The notes below the pieces were generated by a model. The model was not told the origin of the DNA. It saw only the letters and a program-made list of their open reading frames with translations, and ran no database searches. From assembly GCA_022818135.1 (NCBI GenBank), contig JAFMSR010000010.1, forward strand, positions 9,811,188 to 9,875,187: 64,000 nucleotides of DNA, written 5' to 3'. Positions 3,052 through 61,900 of this stretch are shown here, one piece after another. This DNA comes from Saxidomus purpurata (taxonomy: Eukaryota > Mollusca > Bivalvia > Venerida > Veneridae). Each line of letters begins with the position of its first letter. The stretch's first letter is position 1. A program made the position numbers and the translations under genes.

Positions 3052-4089
3052 GTTTCCTTATCCTCAGACAAAGCATCCATCGGAAATTTAATAAGAAAAA
3101 ACGGTACTGCATATAAAAAACGATTTCGTATATTGTGGTACAACATTCCTCGATTCTTGCAGTTAAGAACTGATGCAATGTACAGTGGATTCGAAGAATG
3201 TGCAAGCAAGAATTGCTTGCTTACATATATCAACGGTGATGCACCTATGTGCGCAGCAGTTATATTTACAAATACGCTTTTACCAAAGACCGTTCCTTTC
3301 AAGCGACAAAATGGTCAAATTTGGATACTTTCAGAATATCAGCCGACAATCATGACTAACATTAATTCTGGTTTATGGGATAATGAAAACGTTTTTAATT
3401 GGTCAATGTCTTATCAAAATCGGTTTGCAGACATTCATTTACCATATGGCAAGATACATAAACGAACTACAAGAAGCGATAAGGATTTTTATGAAATTGC
3501 CAAAAGCAAAAATAAAACCGCCTTAATTATAATGTCTCGCTGTAACACACCAGCTAAAAGGCAAGTTTATCTAAACAAACTGAAGAGATACGTTGATATT
3601 GATATATTGGGGCGTTGTGGAACAAAATGGGACTGTGGTATGAAATATTTGCATGACGACTGCTTTGATATTTTAAATCAATATAAATTCTTCTTGGCAT
3701 TTGAAGATTTACTTTGCAGTGAGTATTTCACGGATAGACTGTTCGAAAATTTTGATTACGACACCATCCTAGTAACACGTGGTGGTCTTAAAGGACAAAT
3801 CAAGCAAATAATGCCAGCAGGGACTTTCATTGCTGCTGAAGACTTTCAAGATGCAAAACAACTCGGACAGTTCTTGAGTTCAATGACGTTAGAAAGTTAT
3901 GTTGATATGTTAAAATTGAAAAGTCTTTACGAATCGGAGGCATATGCATATGTGTTTCGCAATGCTATGTGCGATATTTGTAATAGATTGAATAATGTTG
4001 AAGAATTCAGAAGCACAAAATATAGTATTAATTACATTCAGAATTATTCATCATCTTGCACCTCTCCAGATGACTTAATTACACATTAA
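3052..4089 (+). CDS. Alpha-1,3-fucosyltransferase-like (GT10), 3'-terminal coding exon, copy 2
   Basis: This exon encodes 345 residues colinear with copy 1 and read from the acceptor AG at 3050-3051. It keeps ILWYN near the start, the NWSMSY...IHLPYG region, the paired cysteines of the C-terminal part (CGTKWDCG, CDIC) and the block PAGTFIAAEDF. It differs at the donor-site signature: copy 1 has ALENS and TEK, whereas this copy has AFEDL and TDR (YKFFLAFEDLLCSEYFTDR). Those positions are strongly conserved in the GT10 family, so the paralogue may have changed activity or lost it. The reading frame is intact over its whole length, which argues against a simple pseudogene. The signal-anchor exon was not found. 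Confidence 0.87.
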   Translation, partial: VSLSSDKASIGNLIRKNGTAYKKRFRILWYNIPRFLQLRTDAMYSGFEECASKNCLLTYINGDAPMCAAVIFTNTLLPKTVPFKRQNGQIWILSEYQPTIMTNINSGLWDNENVFNWSMSYQNRFADIHLPYGKIHKRTTRSDKDFYEIAKSKNKTALIIMSRCNTPAKRQVYLNKLKRYVDIDILGRCGTKWDCGMKYLHDDCFDILNQYKFFLAFEDLLCSEYFTDRLFENFDYDTILVTRGGLKGQIKQIMPAGTFIAAEDFQDAKQLGQFLSSMTLESYVDMLKLKSLYESEAYAYVFRNAMCDICNRLNNVEEFRSTKYSINYIQNYSSSCTSPDDLITH

Positions 4090-34460: not shown

Positions 34461-35675
34461 TTAACTGAAGCCAAATGCTATTTGGATATCCGTAAGATTT
34501 ACCTTTATTATTCCATTTTTATATATGTTGTTTTGGTGGCTTACTATAAACAGTCCTTGGTTACTTCCTCGCATGTAAGCCGCTGTAACTCCAAAGTTAC
34601 TCCTTGTTAAAAGTAAAATATCACAACTAGCGAGAAAATAATATTCAAGAAGTACAGTAAAAAGTCCATTACACACTTCAAAAGAAAATCGATCTTGTAC
34701 CGGAAGGTCTATATGAACAATAGAACTGTTCAATGTATGCATAGTGTGAATCTTTCTTGCCAGTTGTTTAATGTGGTCAGAATCACTAGCCATGTATAAA
34801 GAATACTGCTTATCTAGTGCAAAGCTTTCTAGAAACGTAAAAATCTCTTTGAGCTGGCGTCTACCAATTCCATTCGACACCATCCTGTCCTGTGGGTTGC
34901 TTGGATTTTTTCCCATTCGAATATGGGCACATACAAGTTTTTTATTGTCACCAAACTTCGTCAGTAATTGTTCTTTACTCTTCAAAAGCGTATACCCTTC
35001 TTTAAAAAGAGTATTTATCAGCAAATGTGTGATTTCTTCATTCGACATATTTTTCATCCATCCAAAATGTTTACTGGTATACTTGTGATTTTTCAGTACG
35101 TCAAATGCATATATTCTTATGGCAGTTTCAATGTTTGTTTCATCCCAGGCTTGATCAAAATCCATGTCGGATATATTTGGAACAATACTGTCCTTATCTT
35201 TTGTTATACTTACAAGCTTTGTTTCACTAAGGGAACGTGTAAAACTTTTGCACATTGACCAGTCATACACTCTGTAGTCAAGAATGTTTTCAAGATCACA
35301 TGGCTGCTTCATGTCAATAACAAAGACCCTTTTTGTTACAATAGCTAATAAAAAGGACGACGTTATTCCTTTAATACGATCCCCCAATCCTCCACAACAA
35401 CATGTGTCGCATTTATATGTTAGAAACTTTTTTGACGTGCATTCACCTTTATGTTGAAGTGTGATGTGTTTCAAAGCACAGTTTGTTAGATATTTAAAAC
35501 AAAATTTTCCTGAACAATTTTCAGCAACGAAAGTTTTTAAACCATTTCCTCGACATGTTTCATCACTTCCGACATTATACTCTCCGTCGTGGGCAATTCG
35601 TTTGTCTTTCTTTCCGAAGCAACAAAACACTGTTATATAGATAACTAAAGTGACTGCACTGACCACCAGTAAGAT
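34461..35675 (-). CDS. GT-B fucosyltransferase-like enzyme, 3'-terminal coding exon
   Basis: The exon encodes 404 residues on the minus strand. It begins after an acceptor AG at 35676-35677 preceded by a pyrimidine-rich tract. The frame has no ATG before the conserved region, so the start codon lies in an upstream (higher-coordinate) exon. Residues 1-20 (ILLVVSAVTLVIYITVFCCF) form a membrane span suited to a type II Golgi anchor. The luminal part has a cysteine cluster, then GGLGDRIKGITSSFLLAIVT at about 95-114, AHIRMGK at about 250-256 and CDILLLTRSNFGVTAA at about 351-366. A glycine-rich GGLG(D/N)R loop plus HxRxG plus S.FG plan is the fold signature of the alpha-1,2/alpha-1,6/O-fucosyltransferase superfamily (GT11, GT23, GT37, GT65 and relatives). 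Which family it belongs to, and its acceptor, cannot be decided here. Confidence 0.7.
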   Translation of the reverse strand: MLLVVSAVTLVIYITVFCCFGKKDKRIAHDGEYNVGSDETCRGNGLKTFVAENCSGKFCFKYLTNCALKHITLQHKGECTSKKFLTYKCDTCCCGGLGDRIKGITSSFLLAIVTKRVFVIDMKQPCDLENILDYRVYDWSMCKSFTRSLSETKLVSITKDKDSIVPNISDMDFDQAWDETNIETAIRIYAFDVLKNHKYTSKHFGWMKNMSNEEITHLLINTLFKEGYTLLKSKEQLLTKFGDNKKLVCAHIRMGKNPSNPQDRMVSNGIGRRQLKEIFTFLESFALDKQYSLYMASDSDHIKQLARKIHTMHTLNSSIVHIDLPVQDRFSFEVCNGLFTVLLEYYFLASCDILLLTRSNFGVTAAYMRGSNQGLFIVSHQNNIYKNGIIKVNLTDIQIAFGFS

Positions 35676-37203: not shown

Positions 37204-37597
37204 ATTATTTTTGTTTTTACCAGTGACATGGTACGTTAGCTAGACTTTACCAGTGATATGATGCGTTAGTTTAACCTTACCAGTGGCATGTTTCGTTACT
37301 TGAACCTCTTATTACTGACATAATACGTTACATTGACATTATCATTGACATAATACGTTACCTTTACCTTATCACTGCCAGAAACGAACCTTTTTATGAG
37401 TTTCCTCACTTGCTTTGTATGCACTATAAAAAGTTTTGAAATACTAACCTTAACTCCCTTTGATACTGATAATTCCAAATTTTCTGTTGAAACATTTTAC
37501 CTCGTTATCAGCTGACTGAACTATATGACAGTTACCAAGTATTATCGCCAAACAGGAAATGTTGATATAATAAAGAATAAAAAGCACACTAAAAAGG

Positions 37598-37609
37598 CAG
37601 TGTAAAAGT
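37598..37609. repeat. Target-site duplication, left copy
   Basis: CAGTGTAAAAGT here is repeated exactly at 39008-39019 and brackets the GC-rich insertion. Confidence 0.85.
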
Positions 37610-37756
37610 CTGCTCTCTGGCCCTCGTGGCGTGCACGTCGCGGAGCAGGCGTGGGGTCTCGACGGAAACTAGGTCAACACACACAATAGGACTTCGGTCC
37701 ACTTGTACTTCGGTACATTGACCTAGTAACTGTCGGGGCCTCAGCTAACGACGAGG
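37610..37756 (+). ncRNA. HDV-like self-cleaving ribozyme at the retroposon 5' end
   Basis: All helices of the nested double pseudoknot can be drawn, in the right order. P1 is seven pairs, CTGCTCT (37610-37616) with GGAGCAG (37642-37648), one of them a U-G. P2 is six pairs, CCTCGT (37622-37627) with ACGAGG (37751-37756). P3 is GCG (37629-37631) with CGC (37639-37641), closing the seven-base loop TGCACGT and followed directly by the P1 3' strand. P1.1 is GC (37633-37634) with GC (37649-37650). P4 is 37653-37665 with 37730-37742, thirteen consecutive pairs including several G-U. P4 continues as a 10-pair helix, ACTAGGTCAA with TTGACCTAGT, capped by two TTCG-loop hairpins, GGAC-TTCG-GTCC and TGTAC-TTCG-GTACA. 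The P4-P2 junction is AGCTAACG, giving C37745 followed by UAA, the position and context of the catalytic cytosine in the family. Cleavage would fall just 5' of 37610. Confidence 0.85.
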
Positions 37757-38229
37757 TAGTGACTCTAACAAGAGCCGTTTGTTGTTATCAACGCAGCACA
37801 GAAGACCTCCAGGATGAGATAGGCACCACTCTGCTAGAATCCCTGTGTGCCAGTGACGACTGCCGGATGACAGGGGACCTTCACAACAGACAGCGAGATG
37901 GCGGCTTGCGGTTCTATTACAGACATCAGAAGCCCTCCCTTACAGTGTTTGTGCTGGGGGCAAGCAACCTTTCTTACCACGTTCGGACAGGGTCACTCAC
38001 ATCTAGGTCGGAATTGGCCGCGTGGGTGACCTACTTTTGGGACTCTAAATTTCTCTTTAGCCAGTGGAAATGGGGAGGACGATGAGCGACTGACAACATG
38101 TGCTCTGGAAAGCCTGAGGGCCGAGGCTGGTACCCCTATTCTCATTGATTAGGCTACAGAGTCGCATCATGTGTGGGGCAGCTCGGATACTTGAGATCGC
38201 ATCATGCAGCAGGAAACCTGGAATGGTTG

Positions 38230-38330
38230 GTGAGCTTGCTAACCTTTTTTGTTAGTCGGCCCGCCCAGGAAAGGGAGCTCTGGAGTTGGTGGTTAGCTTA
38301 CTGACCTTTTTTGTCAGTAGGCCCACCCAT
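38230..38330 (+). repeat. Two tandem hairpins with identical CTTTTTT loops
   Basis: Stem GCTAAC/GTTAGT (38238-38243 with 38251-38256) and stem TACTGAC/GTCAGTA (38299-38305 with 38313-38319) both close the loop CTTTTTT. They sit in diverged copies of one repeat unit (GTTGGTG... and a trailing GGCCCNCCCA). An A-U pair in the first stem is a G-C pair in the second, so pairing was kept through divergence. Confidence 0.7.
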
Positions 38331-38983
38331 GCTGGGTTGAGTCAAATTACGGCTAGTTGTGTTTTTTGGCCGCCCGGGTGAGTTTTTCCGTCGATGTACT
38401 CACCCAGTCTCTCGGCAGTGGATAAAAAGGGTTTTCAGCATGTGAGAGACATGCATGCTCAGTCTCTTGAGAAGCCTTTATATTCACTGTTAGACAGCGA
38501 ACTTCTGTCGTGAGATGACTACTGGAGAACCTGCTGTGTGATGGGGCCTCGTGAGGATGAGCTTCAGCGCTAGGCTGATGGACACAGACGACTAGTTTTG
38601 GCTGTGACCACTGGTTCAGACTGAGTACTGACTGTCTCTCAGCAGTGCCGGATGAGGGTTCACCGACACAGTTTCGGCACTGTGCTGAAACGTGCGAAAT
38701 GGTACCCATAATGGGGCGTTCGCACGGTTTAGCAGAGAGATACCAGTAGGCCTTGTATGTGCTGCGGCCGTGGCCCAGGCCTGAGTAAGTCACTACCACC
38801 AGAGTGCTTGCTGTCGAATGTTCTCGGATATCTCACCAGGAAAGCTAGCTGATACTGACTGGAAATTGCAGTCAGGTAAATTTCTCCTTTTTCGGCATCA
38901 AAATTCCTTTTCGGGAGACATGCCGGGGACTCATCCAAGCAATAAGCTACTTAGTAGTTTTTGGACGGTCCTTGATAAAATCC

Positions 38984-39010
38984 CTATCAAATCAAATCAA
39001 ATCAAATCAG
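38984..39010 (+). repeat. (AAATC)n retroposon tail
   Basis: Tandem AAATC units end the insertion and merge with the right target-site duplication. Short-unit tails rather than poly-A are typical of several LINE groups and the non-autonomous elements they mobilise. Confidence 0.8.
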
Positions 39011-39019
39011 TGTAAAAGT
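39008..39019. repeat. Target-site duplication, right copy
   Basis: Identical to 37598-37609 (CAGTGTAAAAGT). Confidence 0.85.
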
Positions 39020-40690
39020 ATGTAATAGTAACGAATTTAAAATTAAGTTTATTCAGCTTAAAAGTTGAAGGGGTTAAATCAAACGAAGTAAACCAAACAG
39101 TACAAAAGTTTGCTAAAACCATCAACTTGGAGTGTAACGTTGTTGCATATCGGTTAACGTGAACAAGATAAAAGGTTGTCTTCCAAAGATGAAGATAGAG
39201 ATAAGCCAAAAGACGTCGTAAAATTGAATGCGAATTACTCAGTGTATGCTAAATATCTGCTTAAGCACACGCTTATATCAAACTATTTTAATTATGTATT
39301 TACAGAGCTTTCATAATATGTACCTTAAATGTAATGACCGAGTGGAAAAACCTATTTTTTTTATCATTTTTTGAAAGCTAGATATACATGTATAAATATT
39401 TGGTTGGTCTTGTTGAATTGGCTTATATAGAAATACGCAAATCGTGCCTTTCAAATAAAATGCCTGTGGTTACAAAAAGTATTTACAAAATATTAGAGAC
39501 AAAACATCATTTCTTGTGCCAAGTTTGTCAAAAGGTTACGAAGCATCTTAATTAGTTGAATATTTAACTCACTCCGCAAAAAGCTCTTTCCGACTACAGC
39601 AACTTGTTTCAAAGACTATATTTAAAAGAATCATAAAGTATGAACTAGTTTAAATAGACTCACCAAATTTGCTGCTTTGTGTATCAGAGTGTTCTGAACT
39701 TCTGTCAATTGATGATATGTAATTAAAGTCGTTGATATATAATTAAAGTCATGTATTCGGTCATATCAAATGCGAGAACTCCGAGTAGGCATGAAACTAG
39801 AAGATTGTCTGGATGTTACTTTTTAAAATAACTTAAGACATTTTCATTTACAACTGAACATATATGCTTTATAATCATAGTCCAAATTTCATTTGTTGTC
39901 ATCTGCACTACTATATGTCTTTTGGTGGGCCTGTGCAATTACTCAGGGGTCTGTAACCACCAGTGCAATAAGATGTGATATAATACCTGTGATATTATGA
40001 TGCTATTTATCAATGTCAAAGTACTGTTTCTCGCCAACTCAATTGACAGCTCTAGGTCACGTTTTGATTATTTTACATGTTTAAATATTTACTGCAAAAT
40101 AGACTAGGTAACAGAATTTTAAAGCTCAGTTGTATGTATGTTGATGTATATAATTATATGATATTAAAAAAGTCTCTTGTAATTCTGTATGGAATGGCCA
40201 TATACTGTTTTATATTTTACATGTTTTTATATGGATTGTATTATGTGTGTATATGAATGAGACTGTAATAAAATATAAAACACCTAAACCTAAAACTGGA
40301 TTGAGGCCCTAGCTTCTTAAAATACTTTTTTACAATCGTTGTCTATAACAAATTTCTATTGTGCAAAAGAAAGTGTTAGATTTTCATTTGCAAGAATGGA
40401 GCTTTTCATCCGAAAATACAGGCATCCACCGACGTTTCCGATATTCTTGTTTACTTTGACATTAAAAGTTTTCATTGGTCGTTTCTTGGATAAGCTGCTC
40501 AGTTTACACGCGTGCTCAGTGGCATTTCTCTAGCTCTGTGTCCTCTATACATGAATAAGGATCCATTGCAGTACTTAGCCCTAGGATGTCTGTCTGTTTG
40601 CTCGTAAGTGTTGGACGGGCAGTTGAATTATCATTTGAAGTTTAATTACTTTTTTGCTGATATTGAAGATTTCTTGTAATTCGTTAATGT
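39020..40690. other. AT-rich intergenic sequence, nothing recognised
   Basis: No supported feature. Confidence 0.4.
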
Positions 40691-58900: not shown

Positions 58901-61900
58901 TATATAGAAGCGGTCACAGCGGTTAAACACTTGTTTACTTCTCGAAAAGCAAGTTAAAATGCCCATGAGCCAAATAATGTTAACAATATATCAGACACAG
59001 AATCTTCACATTTCACTCATCATTGGACATGCCTACAACGTTTTAAGATATTTGAGAAGAAAAACGAGTCTTATTTTGATATAGTTAATTATTGGTTCAG
59101 TTTTCTAGGTGGGTTGGTTATTGCGCAATGTCAATGGCTGCGTAGTCAACATTTACATAAATACCGAACATTATTTTCGTGCCAGTTAACCATTCGCTGT
59201 TCTTTACAATGTACTGTAACATTGTATTTGACACACATTAACGAAATCATATCAAATACACGTCCATTCCCCTGACAAGTCAAACACCTTTAATCAAAGT
59301 ATTGGACTATCGTACTATGTGGTATAGTGACTGATTTCTGCCATTTCGTTCTAGAGTGTTGTCGCGTCTGAAGGACGCCACCACACCATAACGACAAATA
59401 AAATGCGCCAATACGACAAATGCGTATTGTTAGCAAGCTAGCTCTATGCCAACGCGCCAACACGCCAACACGCCAGAACGACAAATAGCTTAGTATACTT
59501 GCTTATTTGTCGTTCTGGCGTTTTGGCGGGGTGCCAAGATGCTAACTTTACTGGCAGGGCGCTAAATCGACAATGACTTTTGGCGTGTCGGAGGCACGAC
59601 AGAAGGCCAAACTTCCTGATTTGGCGGATAGGCAGCAAATGTCATTTGTCGTATTGGGACCCCAGATTATTTGTAGCTCAGACTTGTTGTCCTGTTTTCA
59701 CTTCAAACGCAGCAGCACGCTAGAACGAAATGGCAGAAATTAGCTACCATATAGTTTGGGCTGCCATCTTGAACACCATCTTGGATTTTTCGGAAACCCA
59801 AAATCTATGCCAATTTATGCCGGCAGTTTCATAAACAACAATTTGTAAAGAACATTTTGATATATGACTCAGCTTGTTATACGGGGGGGGGGGGGGAGGG
59901 GCGTGGGTCCAGATTCCAATTTTTTAAAGCCAGATAGTGTGACCTATTGTTTATTCATGACTATTTCAAATAGGAATGCTATTTTGAAGTTGTCAGGTAC
60001 TTTGATGAATCCAGGCGTTTAGCGCACCTCTATCTGAAGATTTGTAATCAATGACCTTTCATCAGAAGTAATGACGGCGATTAAATAGACACAGTCTCAT
60101 GTTGTTTCGATGTACACCAAACCATCTTCTATCTGATAAAAAGAAATTCTTACAATCTTCCAGTCAAGTTTTGTTCTAGTGTGCACGAAAAGATATATCC
60201 AAATACAATGTAAAGCTTAAAATAATATTTCAGATAAAATGAAATGCAGTATAATTTGTAAGTTATCAGTAATATTGATGCAGTTACCCGAAATGTACCA
60301 GTTTTCCATTCATATGCCTATGTCCGGTCGTTGCAGTGGTAGTGTGTGTCCGGTCTTTGCAGTGTCAGTACGTGTCCAGTTTTTGCAGTGTCAGTACGTG
60401 TCCGGTCTTCACAGCCACTGTTCAGTACGTGTCCGGTCTTCGCAGTGTATGTACGTGTCCGGTCTTCGCAGTGTCAGTACGTGTCCGGTCTTCACAGTCA
60501 CTGTGTCAGTACGTGTCCGGTCTTTGTAGTGTCAGTACGTGTCCGGTCTTCACAGTTACTGTGTCAGTACGTGTCCGGTGTTTGTAGTGTCAGTACGTGT
60601 CCGGTCTTCACAGTCACTGTCTTAGTATGTGTCCTGTCTTTGCAGTGTCAGTACGTGTCCGGTCTTTGCAGTGTCAGTACGTGTCCGGTCTTCACAGTCA
60701 CTGTGTAAGTACGTGTCCGGTCTTTGCAGTGTCAGTACGTGTACGGTTTTCACAGTGTCAGTCCGGTCTTTTGCTTGTATTATCAATTTGGTCACCTTAC
60801 AAAGTGTGATTATGGCAGAGTTTTGGGTCTTGCAATATCATATTATAGTCTGTGCTTCAAGAATTTTTAGCAGATTTATGGAAATTTCCTTCCAAGGCTT
60901 CCTTGAATTTTGCGAAATATTGATATATAGTGGTTCCAGTCACTTCCAAGTCTAATCGCACACACTGTCAGATGTTAAATTTGACTTTTAAACGATTAAA
61001 ACATTTGTGCAAAACCAAAGCCCTTGGTCAATTTAACTAAATCTTATGTTGGGTTGTATTTGGTAAATGCGATTTAAACAGATTTCACGCTATATTTGGA
61101 AAATACAATTTAAACAAAATTTCGCCAGCCTACATTAGAAAAAAATAACTGATAACAAAAAACGTGTCATGTTATTCTTTAAAAAATCTGGCATTCTAAA
61201 AATACTCTGCATTGGACATGCATTTAAGCGATGATAAATAAAGCGCCGAATGCACTTTACGGCGAAATAAACTAAAAGGAGTAAGCGTAAAGATAATGTT
61301 TTCATCACAAACAGTGGACAACGTGGTGGAGGAAGGTTGCAGGCCGGACTGGGAACTATCACTGAATCTTAGTTTTACAGATGGAAATAGTCTAACGGTA
61401 CAATCTTGTGTGCAGAGCTGTTCTACGCCGTATGTGGCACTACAGGTTTGGCATTTCTGTACATAGTTCTACTTTTTATTAATGTTTTTTGTTGTTGTTT
61501 TTACATGGTTACCAGCCTAGATTATGCCATGGTGATATTATGTCGAGCGGAGGTACAGTAATAAAACAAAATAAAAAATAATACCCTTTCTTGCTTCAAG
61601 TCCCAGGATCTCTTTGAATTTACTGATATTACACTGACAGGATGATGCTCTATTGTCCCGAAAACATGTTGGCATATGCCTTTCTTTTGTATTCAAATCG
61701 TTTCTTCATGAAAAAGAGTTGCCAGAAAATCTTTCTTATATTCTGCAATATCATTTAAAATATACTGCTCTATATTTCGAACATGTTCATCGATGTAAAA
61801 AGTTATATAAGGATTTTTTTTGGTACAAATTAACTTCATTTATTTACATTTTGTTTTGTTTTGTAATTGACCTTTCTCGGCTTTCATAAGATATTGAATT

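Follow-up and report, generated by a model that had tools for sequence, protein, structure and literature searches.

Background

The closest precedents for the element described here are the Drosophila R2 and R2/R1 SIDEs and the trypanosomatid NARTc, RIME and SIDER elements. R2 SIDEs, as presented in passages of PMC3414825, combine a 5' ribozyme with cleavage activity in vitro and a LINE 3' end, a pairing held there to be sufficient, and in the R2/R1 hybrid SIDEs of the same passages the two ends derive from different LINEs. Several short elements with active HDV-like ribozymes are described for trypanosomatids in parts of PMC4035085. The HDV-like ribozymes of R4, Dong, RTE and L1 elements cleave at the element 5' end, and HDV-like ribozymes have a conserved G in L3 (excerpts of PMC3774820).

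Here we report a retroposon from the bivalve Saxidomus purpurata, located in a window of 64 kb (the whole stretch of DNA analysed), that is very probably a non-autonomous non-LTR element with a predicted HDV-like ribozyme cutting before its first base, moved by a LINE. It resembles the R2 and R2/R1 hybrid SIDEs in its 5' HDV-like ribozyme (putative here), its LINE 3' end and its lack of autonomy, but unlike R2 SIDEs, which the passages of PMC3414825 place in 28S rDNA, it belongs to a dispersed family with varied target sites and an internal conserved block. With NARTc, RIME and SIDER, which carry L1TcRz, it shares a short length, a 5' HDV-like ribozyme (again putative) and a partner LINE with RNase H (L1Tc in trypanosomatids); the host differs from that in the portions of PMC4035085, and the partner LINE here is known by its RNase H and 3' end. 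Set against the R2, R4, RTE and L1Tc ribozymes by description only (excerpts of PMC3774820), the predicted ribozyme has the same fold and a putative catalytic C, and differs in its elaborate P4 domain. Metazoan hammerhead retrozymes, as described in sections of PMC7229834 and PMC7761336, are also non-autonomous ribozyme-bearing animal retroposons, molluscs included (the ribozyme of the present element being putative), but they represent another ribozyme class, with units of ~0.2-0.4 kb and circular RNAs. Among the titles, abstract openings and passages that searches of an open-licence library brought up, we found no earlier report of an HDV-like ribozyme on a short retroposon of a bivalve or other mollusc.

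A retroposon with a predicted ribozyme at its 5' end

The retroposon spans 1398 bp (37610-39007) and is flanked on both sides by the 12-bp duplication CAGTGTAAAAGT (37598-37609 and 39008-39019; Table 1). The window copy has no long ORF, the longest being one of 148 aa on the minus strand, and the element is probably non-coding. A second copy was not found in the 64-kb window. Viral contigs gave no match for the ribozyme core or for the element 3' end, and phages gave none for the ribozyme in a distant-mode search. Within the element, two direct repeats of 50 nt, 82% alike and at a spacing of 62 nt, lie at 38218-38329, each with a T run and then GT. In copies L006, L020 and L026, (AAAC)n tails replace (ATCAA)n after the same GATAAAATTCTC.

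Table 1. Coordinates of the retroposon, its predicted ribozyme and associated features in the window
Feature	Position	Strand	Basis
5' target-site duplication CAGTGTAAAAGT	37598..37609		repeat comparison; ends in other copies
Retroposon, 1398 bp, without long ORF, (ATCAA)n tail	37610..39007	+	duplications, ORF scan, copies
P1 5' strand, 7 pairs; predicted cleavage directly before 37610	37610..37616	+	drawn fold, copies
P2 5' strand; family P2 of 8 pairs, 37622-37627 paired in the window copy	37620..37627	+	alignment of copies
P3 5' strand GCG	37629..37631	+	drawn fold, copies
L3 UGCACGU; 37633-37634 pair with 37649-37650 as P1.1	37632..37638	+	drawn fold, copies
P3 3' strand CGC	37639..37641	+	drawn fold
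P1 3' strand	37642..37648	+	drawn fold
P1.1 3' strand	37649..37650	+	drawn fold, copies
P4 5' strand, 14 pairs with 37730-37743	37652..37665	+	folding, subfamily alignment
P4 extension: 10-pair helix around two UUCG hairpins (37689-37700, 37704-37717)	37668..37727	+	folding
P4 3' strand	37730..37743	+	folding, subfamily alignment
Putative catalytic C in J4/2 (CUAA)	37745	+	invariant in 43/43 rows
P2 3' strand; 37751-37756 paired in the window copy	37751..37758	+	alignment of copies
Second block depleted of shared changes (element positions 351-560)	37960..38169	+	change counts, consensus fold
3' end common with RNase-H-bearing LINE, terminating in (ATCAA)n	38852..39007	+	genomic pattern, alignments
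3' target-site duplication	39008..39019		repeat comparison

All of the helices P1, P1.1, P2, P3 and P4 are present in 37610-37756 in the HDV order and fit a double pseudoknot. A preliminary description of the locus had drawn these helices in nested order, with a 10-pair extension and two UUCG hairpins on P4, CUAA at the catalytic junction and P1 starting at the first base after the duplication. Each of these parts is in the sequence, with P4 at 13-14 pairs and 37610 directly following the duplication. P1.1 comprises two pairs, G37633-C37650 and C37634-G37649, which join bases 2 and 3 of L3 to the bases right after P1', the placement that P1.1 has in HDV. Read from 37743, the strand is A-G-C-U-A-A-C-G, in which C37745 would be the catalytic base. 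The Pr77 ribozyme has a short P4, unlike that of the element.

Several drawings of P3 compete. GCG/CGC (37629-37631 with 37639-37641) directly adjoins P1', and we took it as the best P3 because it is the only drawing with a compensatory change. Two candidates were rejected, both paired about as often across copies and both free of double changes: an alternative P3, GGC/GUC (95.1% of cells paired), and a 7-pair hairpin over 37625-37642 (96.2%), which competes with P2 and P3 in the window copy. CCCCUCGUGG resembles CCUCCUCGUGG, a motif of R2 given in a passage of PMC5035012; this likeness was set aside and given no weight, since CCCCUCGUGG starts in P2 here and not next to P1'.

Genomic copies and their fixed 5' end

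In the element's own genome (1.135 Gb), a full-length query gave 52 match rows from the best 40 of 1128 candidates, and 23 of the 30 loci fetched with this query start at base 1 by alignment (22 plus L027). When all loci are pooled, the distinct copies with a 5' end that start there number 42, of which 41 do so at base 1 and one at base 2. A clear target-site duplication of 10-20 bp accompanies 30 of these 42, ending exactly before base 1 in 23, one base earlier in three and two bases earlier in four; in most of the 12 copies without a clear duplication the aligned 3' end falls short. The 30 amount to about 28 independent insertions, since L010 has the same flanks as L011, and L039 the same as L046, each pair probably reflecting a segmental duplication. 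Duplications and flanks differ between copies, showing a dispersed family and not the 28S rDNA insertion of R2 SIDEs. Self-cutting before base 1, as predicted from the fold, would explain why most copies start at exactly the same base.

Searching with an exact 29-nt core gave 87 genomic matches, with none for the reversed control. In the DNA behind 20 of the 87, the downstream sequence of several copies was quite different, and six were followed to base 1. Two places with a 3' end more than 6 kb away were considered as ribozyme-bearing LINEs and rejected: C8:44855563 is the short element itself, its two halves separated by ~5 kb, and C1:55422190 is a complete copy of it.

Conservation and covariation of the predicted ribozyme

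In an alignment of 43 copies picked by likeness to the window copy, the putative catalytic C (C136) is invariant (43/43), and the L3 G (G28) is present in 38 of the 42 rows with a letter, the other four having A. Thirty of the 43 rows keep all eight P2 pairs, which CCCCUCGU and ACGAGGGG form. Complete helices were likewise counted for P1 (seven pairs, 35/43), P3 (37/43), P1.1 (39/43) and P4 (13 pairs, 30/43), and all five are complete together in 15 of the 43. A strict descriptor of the HDV fold is passed by 23 copies and failed by 20. The window copy is slightly decayed, having lost the two outer P2 pairs and kept six, and is not the best specimen.

Covariation is weak in this close set, with three double changes in 52 pairs and 94.5% of cells paired vs 94.3% in shuffles. 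A subfamily, here called B (L120-L124 plus L027), has the same core and a single short hairpin at the P4 tip instead. A 33-row alignment takes in subfamily B and, of the 43 rows above, omits 16: 14 close copies, dropped only for thinning, and L030 and L067, which have core deletions. Here the share of paired cells (96.7%), the number of double-change cells (11) and the covariation score each lie above all 500 shuffles; the 11 cells compare with 3.1 in shuffles (0/500) and reflect about four events, in statistics that ignore kinship. The number of double-change pairs (4, reached by 57/500 shuffles) and of pair types (22, 45/500) do not stand out.

The double changes fall in three P4 pairs (two at the base and one, in a single cell, inside) and one P3 pair, with none in P1, P2 or P1.1. 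At the P4 base, pair 43/134 changes from UA to CG in subfamily B (6/33 rows), and pair 44/133 from GC to UA in 3/33 rows (with pairs UG and GU in L073), being unpaired in 6/33 rows, three of them of subfamily B. The P3 change is at pair 21/31, from CG to UA in L073. The P2-P3-P1' strands could not vary in L120-L124, because these were found by the exact P2-P3-P1' core; L027 was found otherwise. The sixth copy followed to base 1, L125 (with L114), was left out of the covariation count because its cut lacked the 3' part; its P4 domain has three tandem UUCG-type hairpins.

These comparisons qualify the preliminary description. Besides the double-tetraloop P4 that it singled out, the genome has at least two other forms of P4, and of the compensatory changes that it asked of other copies in P1, P2 and P4, those in P4 occur (three pairs) and those in P1 and P2 do not. 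Its central claim, an HDV-like ribozyme at the element 5' end, is supported at the sequence level by the fixed 5' ends, the constraint on the core described below, the longer P2 of other copies and the compensatory changes in P4 and P3. Structure and comparative evidence together make a convincing case for a predicted HDV-like ribozyme on a SIDE-like dispersed family.

Constraint on the predicted ribozyme core and on a second block

We counted changes in 39 full copies, picked by likeness to the window copy, and took changes common to at least three copies as a record of source-copy evolution. Changes private to a single copy are no rarer in the core (0.61 per site) than in the other parts (0.48-0.63), the pattern that decay following insertion would produce. 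Shared changes per site number 0.12 (core) and 0.13 (P4 tip), against 0.38, 0.30 and 0.29 at element positions 150-350, 561-1230 and 1231-1370. The ratio of shared to private changes is 10/52 in the core vs 327/667 in the body (p = 0.005), with no difference between core and P4 tip (p = 0.60). Judged by these counts, the predicted ribozyme core is under constraint, being depleted of shared changes and not of private ones.

A second block, at element positions 351-560, is more depleted than the ribozyme, with 0.07 shared changes per site (p = 1e-11). No long ORF runs across it (on the plus strand of the consensus no ORF exceeds the 78 aa of one from position 253), and its consensus fold reaches -24.0 vs -13.8 +/- 2.9 in column shuffles.

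The two missing P2 pairs of the window copy and the 20 of 43 rows failing the strict descriptor would fit a ribozyme that was once active and now survives only on dead copies. We consider this unlikely, although it is compatible with the main reading of the element's origin: the depletion of shared changes in the core and 39 further genomic matches 94-97% identical to L122 (the subfamily B query) point to spread with the ribozyme kept.

Folding energy and a promoter alternative

The window ribozyme has a minimum free energy (MFE) of -66.7 kcal/mol vs -47.4 +/- 3.8 in shuffles (z -5.1), owed by eye mostly to P4; L122, of subfamily B, is unremarkable by energy (z -1.8, with 7/200 shuffles equally good). 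The MFE fold of L002, which is near the consensus, contains P2 and that of the window copy contains P1, as expected of a pseudoknot.

Since much of the stability comes from P4, the 5' sequence could instead act as an internal promoter, or be the place where transcription starts, with a structured, stable leader that is not catalytic, and initiation at base 1 would likewise yield fixed 5' ends; trypanosomatid Pr77 is promoter and ribozyme at once (parts of PMC4035085). We judge this explanation improbable, as it does not predict the 8-pair P2 pseudoknot, P1.1, L3 and CUAA in place, the invariant C or the compensatory changes in P4. In addition, simple pattern searches for SINE-type pol III boxes found no B box in the element consensus and one A-box-like site, at 1180.

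Descriptor and covariance-model searches

The preliminary description had proposed descriptor and covariance-model searches for HDV ribozymes, and these gave different outcomes. Our descriptor, composed after the sequence had been seen, has a single match on both strands of the window, at 37610. Matches anywhere occurred in 1/3000 shuffles of the window ribozyme and 0/3000 of the family consensus, and a match anchored at base 1 in 0/20,000 shuffles of the consensus. Across 599,148 strand-bases of fetched, partly overlapping loci, the descriptor matched 37 cores of the element family (not deduplicated) and three unrelated places, so a chance match somewhere in 64 kb is not rare; the improbable part is a match on the element's very first base. 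Among L120-L124, the strict descriptor is passed by two copies, L122 and L123. Rfam gave no HDV family in the window at the gathering score, and none even at E <= 10 for 37580-39030, L002 and three subfamily B loci. The Rfam HDV covariance models are not known to include a pseudoknot. A chance resemblance within a GC-rich 5' end, to which the negative Rfam result, the descriptor written afterwards and its three unrelated matches per 0.6 Mb of strand would lend weight, is very improbable given a match exactly at base 1, never reached by the anchored shuffles, and a fold kept in subfamily B despite its different P4 tip.

The partner LINE and a proposed mechanism

At its 3' end the element consensus is identical to a LINE at 153 of 169 positions (91%, last ~165 nt). 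The 3'-end pattern occurs 1089 times in the genome, with no occurrence of the reversed control. Twenty such 3' ends on C1 were read: two belong to the element, 15 share the last ~150-170 nt only and three ~80 nt only. When 12 of these 15 were aligned and inspected by eye, the whole upstream stretch was common to seven, part of it to two and none to three. At L097, an RNase H ORF (PF00075, E 1.4e-12) precedes the LINE upstream sequence, and of the best 40 of 949 candidate matches to L097, 38 extend over the full 3.5 kb with 99-100% identity. The L097 query stops ~245 nt before the shared end, so we also searched the next 441 nt; the best 40 of 2484 candidates are all 99-100% identical and reach the tail. 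Ten of these matches, the query's own place included, abut L097 matches at 99-100% identity (C1, C2857, C1668, C217, two on C3, C3361, C618, C7 and C2406), and from these ten places we assign the RNase-H ORF and the shared 3' end to a single young LINE. A relative truncated at its 5' end has a 13-bp duplication.

The element thus pairs a putative 5' ribozyme with a LINE 3' end and has no reverse transcriptase of its own, as SIDEs do, and its partner LINE encodes RNase H, as in the L1Tc/ingi type; the LINE, known here by its RNase-H ORF and 3' end, is likely the source of the element's reverse transcriptase. In bivalves, the I superfamily comprises Nimb and Ingi, according to sections of PMC10294476.

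We propose that read-through transcription from a flanking promoter would enter the element, and that the first ~150 nt of the RNA would fold as an HDV-like ribozyme and cut before base 1, as the fold and the 5' ends suggest. Cleavage would free an RNA whose 5' end is fixed. The LINE reverse transcriptase may then recognise the last ~165 nt, which the two elements share, and target-primed reverse transcription would yield full-length copies with the 10-20-bp duplications seen in the genome. More tentatively, and with some doubt on our part, the element may be a chimera in which an HDV-like ribozyme of one origin and the 3' end of a ribozyme-less RNase-H LINE are joined about a third, strongly conserved RNA block; it would then be a dispersed counterpart of the R2/R1 hybrid SIDEs, with P4 tips swapped between subfamilies.

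A dispersed high-copy family lets the 5'-end-making role of a ribozyme be read directly from many insertions and allows P4 modules to be compared within one genome. If the partner LINE is truly ribozyme-less, the family would show that ribozymes are 5'-end devices which can be transferred to parasites of other LINEs.

Another such 3' end stands immediately in front of eight of the 43 copies. The unit in front is a LINE 3' end (L010, L011, L012, L024, L053), a copy of the element itself (L034) or only a short piece (L047, L054); L047 and L054 share flanks, as do L010 and L011. In the five copies behind a LINE 3' end, a duplication stands between that end and the element and again behind the element, which suggests repeated insertion at one target.

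Other features of the window

Two related ORFs of glycosyltransferase family 10 (fucosyltransferase) lie on one strand at 620-1552 and 3133-4086. On the minus strand, a 401-aa ORF at 34464-35666 has a weak xyloglucan-fucosyltransferase match, slightly under the curated cut-off. An array of imperfect direct repeats occupies 60321-60768.
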